Source of the DNA: Humisphaera borealis
GTDB lineage: Bacteria > Planctomycetota > Phycisphaerae > Tepidisphaerales > Tepidisphaeraceae
Assembly: GCF_015169395.1 (NCBI RefSeq)
Contig: NZ_CP063458.1
Location: 2,418,001 to 2,482,000, forward strand
DNA length: 64,000 nt
Direction: 5' to 3'
Shown: piece after piece, positions 2,230 through 63,182 of the stretch
Position numbering within the stretch: the first letter of the stretch is position 1
How the letters are laid out: every line of letters starts with the position of its first letter
Translations under genes and position numbers: made by a program
Notes under the pieces: model-generated
What the model was told of the DNA's origin: nothing
Database searches by the model: none
What the model saw: only the letters and a program-made list of their open reading frames with translations

Positions 2230-3273
<1,044 letters not shown>

Positions 3274-3320: not shown

Positions 3321-3810
3321 TCAACACGAAGGCACAAAGGCACAAAACACACAAAGAAGAAGTCAGGCTAATGAATAATGCGCTCAATGCCGTCACGAAT
3401 AAGCTCAACGTTGAAGTTGATCATGAGACAAAGGCGTTTGCCGGTCAGCTTCAGGTACGTCAGGCATTGGGCACGGTGAATTGGAATCAACTTGTCGACG
3501 GCCTTGACCTCAACGACGACGGCATCGTCGATCAAAAGGTCGAGACGTAGGGGGGTCGACAATTCGACCCCATCATAGAACAGAGGCACTCGCTTCTGCC
3601 TGAGGACTTCATGCCCCCGTTTAGCCAACTCCATCGCAAGACACTCTTCGTAGATACCTTCAAGCAACCCTGGACCGTATTTCGAATGGACTTTGAATGC
3701 CGAGTCGACGATGGCACGGGCAACGGCTTCAATCTCAGCCTCAAGTGATCCGACAAATCCCATATCTTCCTCTTCTTCGTGCACTTCGTGCCTTTGTGCC
3801 TTCGTGTTGA
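3321..3810. mobile_element. GxxExxY cassette 1 with terminal inverted repeats
   Basis: A 490-bp unit bounded by perfect 23-bp inverted repeats at 3321-3343 and 3788-3810 (outer end TCAACACGAAGGCACAAAGG). Similarity continues inward for ~19 more bases (13 of 19 identical). The repeats are made of the short iterated word GGCACAAA. The only gene inside is the GxxExxY gene at 3368-3763. It separates moxR from the VWA gene. I could not see a clear target-site duplication. Mobility is inferred from the structure and from two similarly built units in this window. Confidence 0.65.
3368..3763 (-). CDS. GxxExxY protein (predicted PD-(D/E)XK fold)
   Basis: A 131-residue protein with the family signature G32-LL-E35-GI-Y38 and the core D75-x9-E85-V-K87 (RLDLLIDDAVVVEVK), the spacing of a PD-(D/E)XK nuclease active site, followed by Q99 in HRAQCLTYL. 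The family is usually 120-135 residues and of unknown role; nuclease activity is a fold-based prediction. I chose ATG 3763 because GAGGAAG precedes it; an in-frame GTG at 3784 lies closer to the terminal repeat. All proposed active-site residues are intact. The gene fills nearly the whole space between the inverted repeats. Confidence 0.88.
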   Translation of the reverse strand: MGFVGSLEAEIEAVARAIVDSAFKVHSKYGPGLLEGIYEECLAMELAKRGHEVLRQKRVPLFYDGVELSTPLRLDLLIDDAVVVEVKAVDKLIPIHRAQCLTYLKLTGKRLCLMINFNVELIRDGIERIIH

Positions 3811-3842: not shown

Positions 3843-6800
3843 CTACTTGTGCTCTCCCTGCTCCTTGTCCTTGATCTGCTGTTGGGCCCGCTTTTTTGCC
3901 GCCATCAGGCCGCCGAGGTGGCCGCCGGGGGGTGCGGTGCCGCCTTTGGGTTCTACCTTCTTGGGGGCTGAGGGGATTGGCTTATTCGTCGCGCCGCCGA
4001 CGACCGACGTGATATCCCCTTCCACCGCCTTGCTGGCGACGAACTTGGCCTTGGGATCGGGTTTGCCGCCGGCCGTCGTGGGAACTGGGGGCGGTGCGCC
4101 GGGGGTTCTCGCGGGCGTTGCCGGCTGCTCGCCGGGCTTGAAGCGGGTCTCGGCGACGTCTTCGCGCACCTTCCGCAGTGCATCCAGCGTTGGCTTGGCC
4201 TCGACCTGCCGGGTGGTGGTGAACGATCGCACCCGGTCGCCGGTGGCGGCGGCCATCTTCTTCAGCGAATCCATATCCCACGCAATCCGCCGAACGGCGA
4301 CGTCGAGGATGATCAGCGCCAGCAGCCAGGGCAACAGCCAGTCCCAGATCGGCTTGAGGCTCTTGCCGGGGAAGACGCCGTCGCGGGTGAAGACCGTCGC
4401 GGTCGTCGGGTCGAAAGGCGTCAGCACGCGGCCGCCGGTGCGCTCGGCAATGCGGCGAAGCGTCGCCTCGTCGCTGCGCAGGGCCCGGTCTTCGGGCGTG
4501 CCGTTCTTGACGGTGCCGGTCAGCAGCATGCCCCCTTCGTTGCCCCGGCCGCGGTAGTTGATCGCCGCCACATAGGCCCCGGCTTCCGACGCATTGAACT
4601 CGGCCCGGTAGGTGCCGGGGGCGATCTGGACCAGCCGCACCTGCTGCGGCTTATCGATGTTTTCGCCGCCGACGATGTTCGCCGTCAGGTTCAGGAAGTT
4701 CTGGTAGCCGGCGTCCTTGTCCATCGCCTCGACGATGATCTCACCCTTGTCGCCGACGATGTTGGTCTTGATATCAAAGTCGCCGCTCATCGGCGGGCGC
4801 TGGATCTTGCGGATGGTCTGGGCGAACAGCGTGGCAAAGCCCGGCGTGCCGACCCAGCCGCTGGCCCAGATATCGTGGGCATCGCTCGTCCAAACAGCCG
4901 ACTTGCCGAGGCCCGACTGCCAGTAAGCCAGGATGGGGTCCTTCATCGGCCCGGTCGCCAGCGGCATCTGCACCTTGGGGTCGTTCTTGCGGCTGGTCAG
5001 GACCATGCCGCCGAGGTTCGGGAACTGACCGATCGATTTGATGAGGTCGTCCGACGGATCTTTGAAGCTCAGCGGGACGCCGCCTTCTGGTTCCTGGATC
5101 AGGCTGCGTTTCACGATCTGCGCTTCCTTGATGAAGATCTGCGGAAGCTGGTTGGCGTTGCTTTCGATCGGCCCGTACGACTTGCCGCCGAGGATGCGCG
5201 GCAGATCGACCATGACCGGCGGCGGCGGGGAGTTGGGGACGTGCGGAAAGACCGTCACCGTGCTGACCGTGATCTTCGCCTGTCTGGCCTGATCCAGCAG
5301 CTTCTGCTGCGGGGCGGCGGGATCGCCGTCCGAGATGATAATGATGTGCTTGTGCCGCGCCTTGGAGTCCTTCAGGCCCTTGCCGCCCTGTGCGCCGTTG
5401 ACGGCCAGTTCCAAGGCATCGTCGAAGCTGGGCATGTCGCCGAGCTTCATGCGTTTGACGGCGTCGATGACGTTCGCCTTGCTCTGCACTTCGCGGAGGG
5501 GGACATCCCATTGGGCACCGCCGACGCCGTTCTTCGCCTGCCCGCCCCAGTCGTAGCTAATGACGCCGATCTCATCGCGGGTCGAGAGCGTTTCGATCGC
5601 CTTGATGGCGCACTGCTCGCCCCAGTAGTTGCCGTTGGGCATTTCGCAGGAGTGCATGACCAGCACCAGCGCGCCCTTGCCGACATTGCGCTGGGCGGGG
5701 ATTTCCATGTCGACCGGCAGAATCTTCTCGGTCTCCGAGCCCGTCCAGCCACCGGCACCGAAGGTGTCGGTCCCGCCGATCATTAGCAGTCCGCCGCCCA
5801 TGTCGTGGACGTAGCTTTTGAGCATCGCGTCCTGCGTGTCGTCCAGGCCGTTGGCGAAGCCGCTTTCGGTGGTGTTGCCACGGGGGACGTTGTAGAGCAC
5901 GACGGCGTCATAGCTTTGCAGGTCGACGATCGAGTTGGGGAACTGATCGATGGTGATCTTGCGGAACTGGATGCCCTCGCCGGGCTTGCCCGGGCCCTTC
6001 TCGCTGAGGGCGCGAATCAGGAAGTCGGATTTCGACCCCGCCTGGCCCGGACGAGCGTTGCCGTCGACGAACAGCACCTCGCCCTTGCCGCGGACGAACG
6101 TGAAGGCCTCGGCGGCGTTGTTGCTGCCGACCGAGTCGTTGGTCGCCTTGGAAGCTGTCCCGCCCGCTGATGCCGTCACGCTGCCGGTGGCTGCCGGATC
6201 GTCCGGCGTGAAGATCGCCCGAAACCGATGCACGCCGGCCGCCGTTTGCGGCGGAACGCGAACGCTTTCGCCGTTCAGGCCGGGCTTGAGCGTCACCCTT
6301 CTGCCGACATCGATCTGAGGCGTCGTCGGGTCCATGTCCAGGTCGGCTTCGCCGTTGGACATCAGGTGCTTGACCCGCAGTGTACCGCTCACGGGAATCG
6401 GGTTGGTTGACCGCAGCGCCACGCGCAGATCGAACGGCTCATTCTCCCGCTTCCATTCCGGGGCCGAGAACCGATCGACCAGCACGTCGTTCTGAACGTC
6501 GTACTTCAGCAGCATCACGTCGATCGGCACGTTCTGCGCCTTGGCCGCGTCGACGGCGGCGTCGAGATCGCCGGTGGTGCCGTTGCCGTCGGTCACCAAT
6601 ACCAGGCGGTGCATGGCGTCGGCCGACAGCGTCACCAGGCCAAGCTGGATCGCGGCGGCGATGTCCGTGCCGCTGTTGGGCTTTCCGGACCAGGTGCCGC
6701 GGTTGTCGAGCCGCAGCTCCTGGTTGGGCATCGCATCGACCCGGGCATAATGCCGGAAGCTGATCAGGCCGATGCGGTCGTTCTTCTTCTTGTTCTCGTC

Positions 6801-7133
6801 GACCCCAAGTGCCCGGTAGTAGCGGTCCAGCGCCTGCTGCACCGAGGCAACATCGGTCCCTTTGCCGGGATAGGTGCCGACGTTGTCGACCGACCCCGAA
6901 GAGTCGTTCAGGACCATCACTTCCAGGTCGTCATGCTTCCGTTCCCAACGGGCCCCGCCAAGGATCAGGATGAGCAGCAGGATCACCATCAGCCGAACGG
7001 CGATCGCGGTCCACTTGCGCGCCTGGCCCAGCCCGGCGAGCGACCAGAGCCCCAAGAACACCACAATCGCCCCCGCGCCGGCAAATGCCAGGAGAGCGAC
7101 CCACCAAGAGAAATGTTGGAGTTGAAGGGGCAT
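3843..7133 (-). CDS. Large VWA-domain membrane protein (BatA/glutamine amidotransferase-like type)
   Basis: About 1096 residues. Two N-terminal membrane helices (about 9-32 and 44-60) precede a von Willebrand A domain with MIDAS motif D77-S-S-G-S81. A beta-sandwich-like region follows, then a segment (ILFVDGNARPGQ ... GGGLLMIGGTDTFGAGGW) typical of class-I glutamine-amidotransferase-like folds in such proteins. A second VWA-like region contains IIISDGDPAAP. A C-terminal helix (WDWLLPWLLALIILDVAV) precedes a Lys/Pro-rich tail. It probably works with MoxR in an envelope complex. The open frame extends upstream to 7187, but those codons are the terminal repeat of cassette 2, so ATG 7133 (MPLQLQHFSWW) is preferred. 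No strong Shine-Dalgarno is seen. Confidence 0.85.
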   Translation of the reverse strand: MPLQLQHFSWWVALLAFAGAGAIVVFLGLWSLAGLGQARKWTAIAVRLMVILLLILILGGARWERKHDDLEVMVLNDSSGSVDNVGTYPGKGTDVASVQQALDRYYRALGVDENKKKNDRIGLISFRHYARVDAMPNQELRLDNRGTWSGKPNSGTDIAAAIQLGLVTLSADAMHRLVLVTDGNGTTGDLDAAVDAAKAQNVPIDVMLLKYDVQNDVLVDRFSAPEWKRENEPFDLRVALRSTNPIPVSGTLRVKHLMSNGEADLDMDPTTPQIDVGRRVTLKPGLNGESVRVPPQTAAGVHRFRAIFTPDDPAATGSVTASAGGTASKATNDSVGSNNAAEAFTFVRGKGEVLFVDGNARPGQAGSKSDFLIRALSEKGPGKPGEGIQFRKITIDQFPNSIVDLQSYDAVVLYNVPRGNTTESGFANGLDDTQDAMLKSYVHDMGGGLLMIGGTDTFGAGGWTGSETEKILPVDMEIPAQRNVGKGALVLVMHSCEMPNGNYWGEQCAIKAIETLSTRDEIGVISYDWGGQAKNGVGGAQWDVPLREVQSKANVIDAVKRMKLGDMPSFDDALELAVNGAQGGKGLKDSKARHKHIIIISDGDPAAPQQKLLDQARQAKITVSTVTVFPHVPNSPPPPVMVDLPRILGGKSYGPIESNANQLPQIFIKEAQIVKRSLIQEPEGGVPLSFKDPSDDLIKSIGQFPNLGGMVLTSRKNDPKVQMPLATGPMKDPILAYWQSGLGKSAVWTSDAHDIWASGWVGTPGFATLFAQTIRKIQRPPMSGDFDIKTNIVGDKGEIIVEAMDKDAGYQNFLNLTANIVGGENIDKPQQVRLVQIAPGTYRAEFNASEAGAYVAAINYRGRGNEGGMLLTGTVKNGTPEDRALRSDEATLRRIAERTGGRVLTPFDPTTATVFTRDGVFPGKSLKPIWDWLLPWLLALIILDVAVRRIAWDMDSLKKMAAATGDRVRSFTTTRQVEAKPTLDALRKVREDVAETRFKPGEQPATPARTPGAPPPVPTTAGGKPDPKAKFVASKAVEGDITSVVGGATNKPIPSAPKKVEPKGGTAPPGGHLGGLMAAKKRAQQQIKDKEQGEHK

Positions 7134-7160
7134 CGGCTGGCGCTCAGGGAAGAAAACGTA

Positions 7161-7604
7161 GAACCACAGATGCACACAGATGCACACAGATAAGAGATGT
7201 CATTCGATGCGCCTCCCGTTTCCTCTGACGCGTTTGTACTCGAGATCTGGCTTGACGAAGTTCATTAAAAGGCAGACGGGCAAGCCGGTTGCAGAAAGAT
7301 AGTTGATGCATTGCGCCATGTGAATCTCGTCCAACGTCTTGACCGCTTTCACCTCGAGAAGCACCGTATGCTCGACGATCAAGTCGGCAACGTACTCCCC
7401 GACGACTACACCATCATACATGATCGCGAATCGAGCCTGTTGCTCGAATTTCAGGCCTGCTTTCCGCAACTCGACACAGAGTGCGTTCTCATCGACCTTC
7501 TCGAAGAACCCGCACCGCACACGGTTTGCGACCCTGAACGCACAGCCGATGATCGCGCCCGTCAACTGATTTAATCTGTGTTCATCTCTGTGCATCTGTG
7601 GTTC
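7161..7604. mobile_element. GxxExxY cassette 2 with terminal inverted repeats
   Basis: A 444-bp unit bounded by inverted repeats at 7161-7191 and 7574-7604 that match at 29 of 31 positions (outer end GAACCACAGATGCACACAGA). The repeat is two to three copies of a ~10-bp word, CACACAGATG. One gene, GxxExxY, fills the interior, and its ATG lies inside the right-hand repeat. The unit sits between the NHL lipoprotein gene and the VWA gene. Its repeat sequence differs from that of cassette 1, but the layout, size and cargo are the same. Confidence 0.65.
7200..7595 (-). CDS. GxxExxY protein (predicted PD-(D/E)XK fold), variant signature
   Basis: A 131-residue paralogue of the protein at 3368-3763, same length. 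The signature is G29-FF-E32-KV-D35, so the usual Tyr is replaced by Asp (GxxExxD). The proposed catalytic core D71-x9-E81-V-K83 is intact, as is Q95 (HMAQCINYL). The start ATG at 7595 is part of the terminal repeat: the first seven codons (MHRDEHR) are the repeat word read as protein, and GAGGAG just outside the repeat gives the ribosome binding site. The gene therefore depends on its terminal repeat for translation. The frame is open further upstream, but only as antisense of the NHL gene. Confidence 0.85.
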   Translation of the reverse strand: MHRDEHRLNQLTGAIIGCAFRVANRVRCGFFEKVDENALCVELRKAGLKFEQQARFAIMYDGVVVGEYVADLIVEHTVLLEVKAVKTLDEIHMAQCINYLSATGLPVCLLMNFVKPDLEYKRVRGNGRRIE

Positions 7605-7626
7605 TCCTCTCCCGATCTTCAGCGGC

Positions 7627-8541: not shown

Positions 8542-8544
8542 CGG

Positions 8545-8737
8545 TCCCCTCCTCCGGTACTCCGGGGGAGGGTTAGGGTGGGGGTTGCTCCGATCGGCGT
8601 TCATGCGCGCTAGAGTTGCTTTGTCTATCTCTCGAAAAGCACTTGTAGCGGCGGGCGTCGCCTTCATGAGTTGTCGAGGGAATACCAACCGACACAACCC
8701 CCACCCTAACCCTCCCCCGGCGTACCGGAGGAGGGGA
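8545..8737. mobile_element. MITE-like element with 42-bp terminal inverted repeats
   Basis: Inverted repeats at 8545-8586 and 8696-8737 match at 41 of 42 positions (outer end TCCCCTCCTCCGGTACTCCG) and enclose 109 bp with no gene. It fills the whole gap between the permease stop and the NHL lipoprotein start. The left end, read on the minus strand, supplies the purine-rich ribosome binding site of the NHL gene. Confidence 0.75.
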
Positions 8738-8767
8738 CTTGGCCGCCACCCGTGGATGGACATTCGA

Positions 8768-11921: not shown

Positions 11922-11997
11922 TTTTAGCGCCATCCCCGAAGGGGTGGGCTCGGCGCGACCGGCGCGAGAACCCACCCCTTCGGGGATGGCGCTAAAA
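11922..11997. repeat. Two-hairpin (bow-tie) element, CCATCCCC type
   Basis: A 76-bp inverted repeat starting TTTTAGCGCCATCCCCGAAG and ending with its complement. Each half is itself a hairpin (CCATCCCC-GAA-GGGGTGG). It lies 98 bases upstream of the iron-binding lipoprotein. The 302-base gap 11824-12125 holds only this element and the terminator at 12055-12084. Confidence 0.7.
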
Positions 11998-37204: not shown

Positions 37205-37294
37205 GGGTGGCATGGGCAAGCGTACTCGCTTGCCCGTGGGGATCGCCGTCTGACGTTCGACACGGGCAACGGAGTACCGTTGCCCATGCCACCC
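37205..37294. repeat. Bow-tie element, family A (GTACTC loops)
   Basis: A 90-bp inverted repeat bounded by GGGTGGCATGGGC and its complement. It contains two hairpins, GGGCAAGC-GTACTC-GCTTGCCC and GGGCAACG-GAGTAC-CGTTGCCC. It is the reverse complement of the copy at 40776-40865 with scattered changes, several of them compensatory in the stems. Confidence 0.85.
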
Positions 37295-37306: not shown

Positions 37307-37395
37307 TGGTGCCACGGGTCGGCGGTACTCCGCAGACCCGTGCGTGGACAGGCGGTCGGCACGGGTCTCCGGAGTACCGGCGACCCGTGGCACCA
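37307..37395. repeat. Bow-tie element, family B (GTACTC loops)
   Basis: An 89-bp inverted repeat bounded by TGGTGCCACGGGT and its complement. It holds two hairpins with stems GGGTCGGCG/CGCAGACCC and GGGTCTCCG/CGGCGACCC, and the same loops GTACTC and GAGTAC as family A. It ends 47 bases before the downstream hydrolase start. The sister copy is at 45358-45445. Confidence 0.85.
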
Positions 37396-43613: not shown

Positions 43614-43694
43614 TTGTGGCATGGGCATGTACTCATGCCCGTGTCTTCTCCGAGGCATCGCAAGCACGGGCATGAGTACCTGCCCATGCCACAA
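43614..43694. repeat. Bow-tie element, family A, third copy
   Basis: An 81-bp inverted repeat bounded by TTGTGGCATGGGCAT and its complement. It has hairpins GGGCAT-GTACTC-ATGCCC and GGGCAT-GAGTAC-CTGCCC. The stems are shorter than in the other copies but the loops are unchanged. It lies 29 bases upstream of the lipoprotein start. Confidence 0.85.
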
Positions 43695-46261: not shown

Positions 46262-46370
46262 CGTCAGTGAAACGGGCTTCCAGCCCGTGCATGGTGCGCC
46301 GGAGTAGGCAATCGTTCACACCAGCAAGCATTGAACCGCGCGCACGGGCTGGAAGCCCGTGTCACTGACG
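46262..46370. repeat. Two-hairpin (bow-tie) element, ACGGGCT type
   Basis: A 109-bp element whose ends (CGTCAGTGAAACGGGCTTCC and its complement) match at all but two of 30 positions. Each end is a perfect hairpin, ACGGGCT-TCC-AGCCCGT or ACGGGCT-GGA-AGCCCGT. It lies between the SDR gene and the isomerase gene, 53 bases before the latter's ATG. Confidence 0.82.
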
Positions 46371-55693: not shown

Positions 55694-55793
55694 GGGAATG
55701 ACGAATGACGAAACTCGACTCGACGCGAGTTCAGTTGGTCATTGATAGATTCGAGTTTCATTCGTCATTCGCATTTCGTCATTCGTCATTCCC
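55694..55793. mobile_element. MITE-like inverted repeat directly upstream of truB
   Basis: Perfect 20-bp inverted repeats at 55694-55713 and 55774-55793 (GGGAATGACGAATGACGAAA and complement), with a second inner pairing of CGAATGACGAA words, enclose about 60 bp. The element ends one base before the GTG start of truB. Confidence 0.75.
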
Positions 55794-62946: not shown

Positions 62947-62983
62947 TGCTTTGGCCTGTGGCGAGCAAGCCGGCACCGGAACA

Positions 62984-63153
62984 AAGAGAACACGAAGGCG
63001 CGAAGGCACGAAGAAGCCACGAAGGTTGGCAAATCGATGGATGGCCACCGGCGATCCGTTTGCGCGCCTGGCATCAGGATTCGGGCCAAGAGCGCCAAAG
63101 GGGCAGGAACTACTTCGCGTTTCCTTCGTGCTTTCGCGCCTTCGTGTTCTCTT
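62984..63153. mobile_element. Gene-less unit with GxxExxY-cassette-like inverted repeats
   Basis: Inverted repeats at 62984-63013 and 63124-63153 match at 29 of 30 positions (AAGAGAACACGAAGGCGCGA and complement). The word AACACGAAGGC is shared with the terminal repeat of cassette 1 (3321). The 110-bp interior has no credible gene. It lies between the Bax-inhibitor-1 terminator and the fuconate dehydratase stop, which would fit a non-autonomous relative of the GxxExxY cassettes. Confidence 0.6.
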
Positions 63154-63182
63154 CGTCCCCGGCGTAACCCTTCGTTCGCGTC

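Follow-up and report, generated by a model that had tools for sequence, protein, structure and literature searches.

Small genes of the GxxExxY type are common and often multicopy, and they have no assigned function. One of them lies between long inverted repeats, where it interrupts a gene pair. Is this gene a passenger of a repeat element, or is it part of what moves that element? In the open-access literature, which was the scope of our search, GxxExxY receives a passing mention and we found no description of elements made of a GxxExxY gene and repeats. The repeat words described below were also absent from the open-access full text searched.

Inverted repeats enclose a single GxxExxY gene between the VWA gene and moxR

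The window, that is, the whole stretch of 64,000 nucleotides that was analysed, carries the unit at 3321-3810 with these features:

2230 to 3273, minus strand: moxR, the downstream member of the split gene pair
3321 to 3360, plus strand: left arm, first 23 nucleotides perfect, iterated CACRAAG words
3368 to 3763, minus strand: GxxExxY gene of 131 residues, predicted PD-(D/E)XK nuclease (PF13366/TIGR04256)
3771 to 3810, minus strand: right arm, last 23 nucleotides perfect, CACGAAG/CACAAAG/CACGAAG/CACGAAG at 8-8-9 spacing
3843 to 7187, minus strand: VWA-domain gene, upstream neighbour (true start probably near 7133)

Positions 3321-3343 are the exact reverse complement of 3788-3810 (23/23). The first mismatch falls at position 24, and 35 of 40 positions pair over the full arms. 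The inverted-repeat score of the arms is 55, while the best score was 34 in 20 simulated order-3 Markov windows of 64 kb each, with arms at most 750 bp apart. The preliminary description had reported perfect 23-bp repeats around a 131-residue gene between the VWA gene and moxR; we confirm the coordinates, the pairing and the position, and the repeats go beyond chance. It had also noted iterated words in the arms. These are present, but the word is CACRAAG (right arm, CACGAAGGCACAAAGGCACGAAGTGCACGAAG) and GGCACAAA alone is incomplete.

The gene (3763-3368) encodes 131 residues from ATG and 138 from GTG. In profile searches, its product scores 134 bits against TIGR04256, where the cut-off is 35, and 132 bits against PF13366, where it is 22; the 490-bp unit, which this one gene fills, gave no other profile match.

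The host genome has four GxxExxY genes, two of them inside the window. Checking whether each has inverted repeats of its own, as had been suggested, we obtained a positive result for all four; the repeats differ in sequence among them (CACGAAGGCACAAAGG, AACACGAAGGCGCGAAGG, GCGCCAAGAGCGCCAAGG and AACCACAGATGCACACAGATG). The second element of the window and a gene-less element are arranged as follows:

7160 to 7191, plus strand: left arm of the second GxxExxY element, CACAGATG word class
7200 to 7595, minus strand: second GxxExxY gene, found by profile match, motif reading GxxExxD
7574 to 7605, minus strand: right arm of the second element, holding the gene's starting ATG
62978 to 63159, no strand: gene-less element with related words of the same word class (AGAACACGAAGGCGCGAAGGCACGAAG...), arms 62978-63024 and 63113-63159

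In the CACAGATG word class (window 7160-7605), the start codon of the gene falls within a repeat arm, and arm sequence therefore codes for the first residues, MHRDEHRLN in the second element. Similar starts of the MNTDEHRLN type occur at loci L009, L010 and L013.

The GxxExxY protein is confidently modelled as a PD-(D/E)XK nuclease

The structure model built from a 68-row alignment reached a pLDDT of 95.8, compared with 37 for the single-sequence fold. Residues E35, D75, E85 and K87 are invariant in the 68 GxxExxY proteins. The best structural match was the Cas4-like protein SSO0001 (Z 9.4, the sole Z over 8); next came restriction-type folds and archaeal Holliday-junction resolvases. Since these latter matches have Z values of 6-8, only the fold class can be claimed. 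Nuclease folds of the PD-(D/E)XK superfamily make up most of the top structural matches. Foldseek gave no decisive match (all E above 0.001), and a sequence search of solved structures with the GxxExxY protein gave none. We thus model the protein with confidence as a PD-(D/E)XK nuclease, the fold model and the invariant acidic and lysine residues agreeing with the core already predicted for GxxExxY proteins. The comparison with TnsA made in the preliminary description is weak: the element's one gene lacks a TnsB-like companion, and Cas4-like proteins come out ahead in the fold search. TnsA is absent among the structural matches listed, an absence that carries no weight.

Inverted repeats flank most GxxExxY loci

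Across all loci examined, inverted repeats flank 101 of 120 GxxExxY genes. In the host family, 38 of the 40 loci with usable flanks have arms that score at least 36; arms paired from different family elements gave a 95th percentile score of 33, a value raised by shared word types. The broader set comprised 80 loci of many phyla, one of them archaeal, where 63 score at least 28 and 44 at least 36, and 17 show no clear inverted repeat. Among control ORFs of similar length from the same loci (n = 452), 1.5% score at least 28 and 0.7% at least 36. We found no GxxExxY relatives in viral contigs or phages.

The arms follow a common design. A typical arm starts with TTNACC or GAGAAC and continues with CRCNRAG-type words at 8-11 nt spacing; spacings such as 8-8-11, 8-9-10 and 8-8 recur within an element type. 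These iterated words of 8-10 nt (e.g. CACGAAG, CGCAAAG or CACAGATG) differ between elements but match between the two arms. A cyanobacterial element, L168, carries a further hairpin repeat (GTTGGGCGGCTCCGCCGAC) inserted within its left arm.

Relatives have empty sites, and the gene lies in the sense orientation

An empty VWA-moxR junction in relatives had been predicted, and four of them have it: the junction measures 11 bp in G003, 24 bp in G002, 46 bp in G016 and 81 bp in G022. Other GxxExxY elements fill this junction in G006 (CACGAAT words) and G018 (CGCAAAG words). The GxxExxY proteins found there in the host, G006 and G018 belong to different parts of the tree, and the elements of G006 and G018 are independent of the host's. 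In G015, G023 and G024 the same junction holds gene-less palindromes of the S23 word type.

Filled and empty pairs also exist at fabD-fabG (Sphingomonas) and radA-FAD (Bacteroidales), where the element starts at the stop codon or a few bases away. The empty VWA-moxR, fabD-fabG and radA junctions are short and have no word palindrome, so insertion would seem to need no pre-existing palindrome. The empty sites come from relatives too diverged for base-level comparison; in this material we saw neither a target-site duplication nor a product of excision. Several copies occupy the orthologous site in different species and genera. Copy number varies from 0 to 7 among genomes, at different sites.

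With an empty junction in hand, together with repeats at 4/4 host loci, 38/40 family loci and 63/80 broad loci, the gene and its repeats hold together as one cassette, as first proposed. We see neither a majority of GxxExxY genes without repeats nor repeats fixed in place in relatives. The 490-bp unit of gene and repeats is very probably a small mobile unit.

Scoring 101 loci for orientation, we find the GxxExxY gene in the sense direction in 62 of 69 cases with codirectional neighbours (p 4e-12). S23 elements exhibit no such bias (14/21 sense). The sense bias may reflect an insertion preference or the survival of expressed copies.

Gene-less copies accompany the gene

The preliminary description had the unit right but overlooked the many gene-less copies and the word differences between elements. 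The two-word pattern occurs 364 times in the host genome, against 8 occurrences of the reversed control pattern. The first 400 kb contain 66 strong inverted repeats of all classes (0 in the Markov control), of which about 15 are of the GxxExxY word type by reading of the list. Among gene-less copies the ends agree and the interiors differ, and one element is nested in another; such copies are unlike simple deletion derivatives.

To compare genomes, we used 158 genomes of the host's class with completeness of at least 90%. The median number of word hits was 31 with GxxExxY and 2 without it (p 8e-15), while the reversed control pattern was not significantly different (p 0.08, 158 genomes). When genomes of one family are paired, the one with the gene has more words in 88% of comparisons (within-family permutation p 2e-4). 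The words are entirely absent from two members of the host family in which GxxExxY and S23 are both missing. The association has exceptions on both sides: at least 10 word hits occur in 12 of 61 genomes without GxxExxY, and none in some that have it.

RAYT genes do not account for the words in the same way. The 49 genomes with RAYT and without GxxExxY have a median of 2 words, and the seven with GxxExxY and without RAYT a median of 18; the partial correlation of word load is 0.63 with GxxExxY and 0.32 with RAYT number. On these figures, RAYT is not supported as the mobiliser of these words.

Three single genomes were compared in this respect. G042 has one GxxExxY gene, whose arms have CGC words at 9-9 spacing, and each of the 25 listed copies has the same words and spacing. 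Gene-less copies in G035 likewise resemble the gene's arms; in G030 the arms mismatch the listed solo words. Because gene-less repeat copies are abundant in gene-bearing genomes, the gene is probably part of a small mobile DNA kind. We consider it likely, with some reserve, that the GxxExxY gene is responsible for the spread of these copies.

Words follow the protein tree and can switch at one site

Mapped on a 91-protein tree, the word shows 46 changes, compared with 63.6 ± 2.1 in shuffles (0/500 as low). With the 55 broad loci only, it changes 29 times compared with 35.8 (1/500 as low). A CGCAAAG/CGCAGAG clade spans Acidobacteria, Cyanobacteria, Desulfobacteraceae, Planctomycetes and Bacteroidetes. 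The tree being poorly resolved, this agreement supports co-inheritance of gene and arms and not necessarily recognition; physical linkage alone could be its source.

Two pairs of loci with homologous flanks have switched the word in both arms and in nearly all repeats: L021 and L029 between CACGAAG and CACGAAT, and L204 and L176 between CGCAAAG and CGCAGAG, in either direction. A word switched in both arms at a shared site requires concerted change, through repair between the arms, selection for recognition, or both.

Comparison with known elements

The closest analogue is the REPIN-RAYT (REPtron/TIRtron) system, in which a small gene has a copy of a repeat on each side, in inverted orientation. 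The repeat is also dispersed without the gene, mostly in intergenic DNA, and its type tracks that of the enzyme (PMC3116915, PMC3733652, PMC8266576). The GxxExxY gene is similarly flanked by a dispersed repeat, and the gene-less copies track the gene. The differences lie in the enzyme, a predicted PD-(D/E)XK nuclease with no Y1_Tnp (Y1/HUH transposase) in the focal unit, and in the repeat, which consists of iterated 8-10 nt words with no internal hairpin and no GTAG-tagged palindromic REP of 20-40 nt. The GxxExxY word also changes freely between elements. By this analogy, the GxxExxY element would work like REPIN-RAYT but is not a member, as enzyme and repeat architecture differ. As a positive control for the flank test, all 11 Y1_Tnp matches of the host lie between repeats of their own.

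Terminal inverted repeats and the coexistence of gene-bearing and gene-less copies also recall insertion sequences and MITEs. Unlike DDE insertion sequences, the unit has no DDE transposase and is filled by the single 131-residue gene; unlike TnsA-type transposition, it has no TnsB partner and no second gene in its 490 bp. A 23S rRNA intervening sequence is likewise a unit of about 450 nt with one small gene between complementary ends (PMC4990558). The focal gene, however, is PF13366 and not S23, it sits between the VWA gene and moxR, and its arms have no RNA-level signature.

S23 and DUF559 genes show parallel arrangements. In the S23 flank test, applied to genes outside rRNA (L043-L072 and L123-L142), about 42 of 50 loci score at least 28 or close to it and 37 score at least 34, mostly with 7-nt words. 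Such iterated-word inverted repeats around S23 genes suggest that the rRNA is just one of the places where a broader class of elements inserts, giving rise there to intervening sequences. Stand-alone DUF559 genes resemble GxxExxY in being enclosed: among the 15 best-scoring loci, 13 have inverted palindromes of a single class on both sides. They differ in the repeat, a CCCTCTCCC hairpin. Within L266-L290, stand-alone genes lie between CCCTCTCCC/GGGAGAGGG palindromes. None of 10 weaker or fused DUF559 loci showed this arrangement, and domains inside long proteins had no such repeats. Gene-less DUF559-type palindromes also occur at window 8544-8738, although DUF559 has no match in the host genome; palindromes, this cautions, can outlast any gene of their own in a genome.

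A working model and its alternatives

Our preferred explanation is a mobile element whose nuclease would act both at the element's ends and on copies that lack the gene, and we hold it as a whole to be somewhat more probable than its negation. The nuclease would read the iterated words as the mark of its own ends and cut there, perhaps in cruciform or single-stranded form. The cut would start copying or excision, which host repair would complete. The enzyme would serve the element that encodes it and, in trans, those that have similar ends but no gene, much as RAYT does for REPINs. The data show the unit structure, the empty sites, repeated insertion, joint inheritance of gene and word, the association of the gene with gene-less copies across genomes, and the conserved active site; word recognition, cleavage and a nuclease-driven route of transposition are inferred. 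For cutting of the element ends by the nuclease we put the chances at about even. For an active nuclease that encounters long palindromes, cleavage of an extruded cruciform or hairpin would be an attractive first step.

The inverted-repeat elements might instead be moved by a RAYT (Y1/HUH) or DDE transposase, with the nuclease as cargo or copy-number regulator. The enclosed Y1_Tnp genes of the host and the 0.32 correlation that word load keeps with RAYT number fit this view. So does the arrangement of S23 genes; S23 proteins have no known nuclease activity, so the enclosed gene need not be the mobiliser. We nevertheless regard it as unlikely, because words are scarce in RAYT-only genomes (median 2, against 18 with GxxExxY only), the correlation with GxxExxY is the larger (0.63), and the arms of the host's RAYT genes are hairpins of other sequence, not iterated words. 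Homing, in which the nuclease cuts alleles without the gene at target palindromes and repair copies the gene in, would suit a small, lone nuclease, the gene-less palindromes as possible targets, and the three genomes with GxxExxY elements at one VWA-moxR junction. Insertions at many unrelated sites and empty junctions with no word palindrome argue against it, and it is less probable still.

The arms could instead pair in the transcript, with processing of the unit as in the S23-bearing intervening sequences of 23S rRNA; rRNA intervening sequences have complementary borders and are cut out by RNase III (PMC4990558). The iterated-word repeats around S23 genes of the same genomes and the orientation of the gene with its neighbours (62/69 codirectional pairs) are consistent with this. 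However, the elements lie between protein genes and not in rRNA, and arm mismatches read on the mRNA strand give no excess of G-U over A-C (39 vs 38; 61 vs 77), which makes such processing very improbable. Least credible to us is a domesticated host function in defence or regulation, with the repeats as relics of an old insertion. Copies kept at orthologous sites across species and genera would agree with it; a PADLOC search gave no match, copy numbers of 0-7 at differing sites speak against it, and the arms stay matched while the words change.

Returning to the nuclease-driven element, a wider claim is more tentative, and we lean slightly against it: that a lone PD-(D/E)XK nuclease brings about its own movement and that of gene-less relatives, in the absence of any known transposase or recombinase, by recognising iterated words switchable in place, that such elements are widespread, and that DUF559 and S23 form parallel systems on other proteins. 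An element driven by its nuclease would account for many dispersed palindromes of bacteria, a large class to which no known transposase corresponds; the REPIN-RAYT arrangement would have arisen more than once with unrelated enzymes, and there would be nucleases with recognition words that are short, iterated and changeable and that the flanking DNA displays directly. The GxxExxY genes would gain a testable function, and the rRNA intervening sequences with S23 genes may join a broader group of elements.

Other repeats in the window

A gene-less inverted repeat at 55694-55793 has the word AATGACG, a type associated with S23 elements. Paired, REPIN-like hairpin repeats occur at 11922-11997, 37205-37294, 37307-37395, 43614-43694 and 46262-46370; they are of the kinds that flank the host's Y1_Tnp genes.
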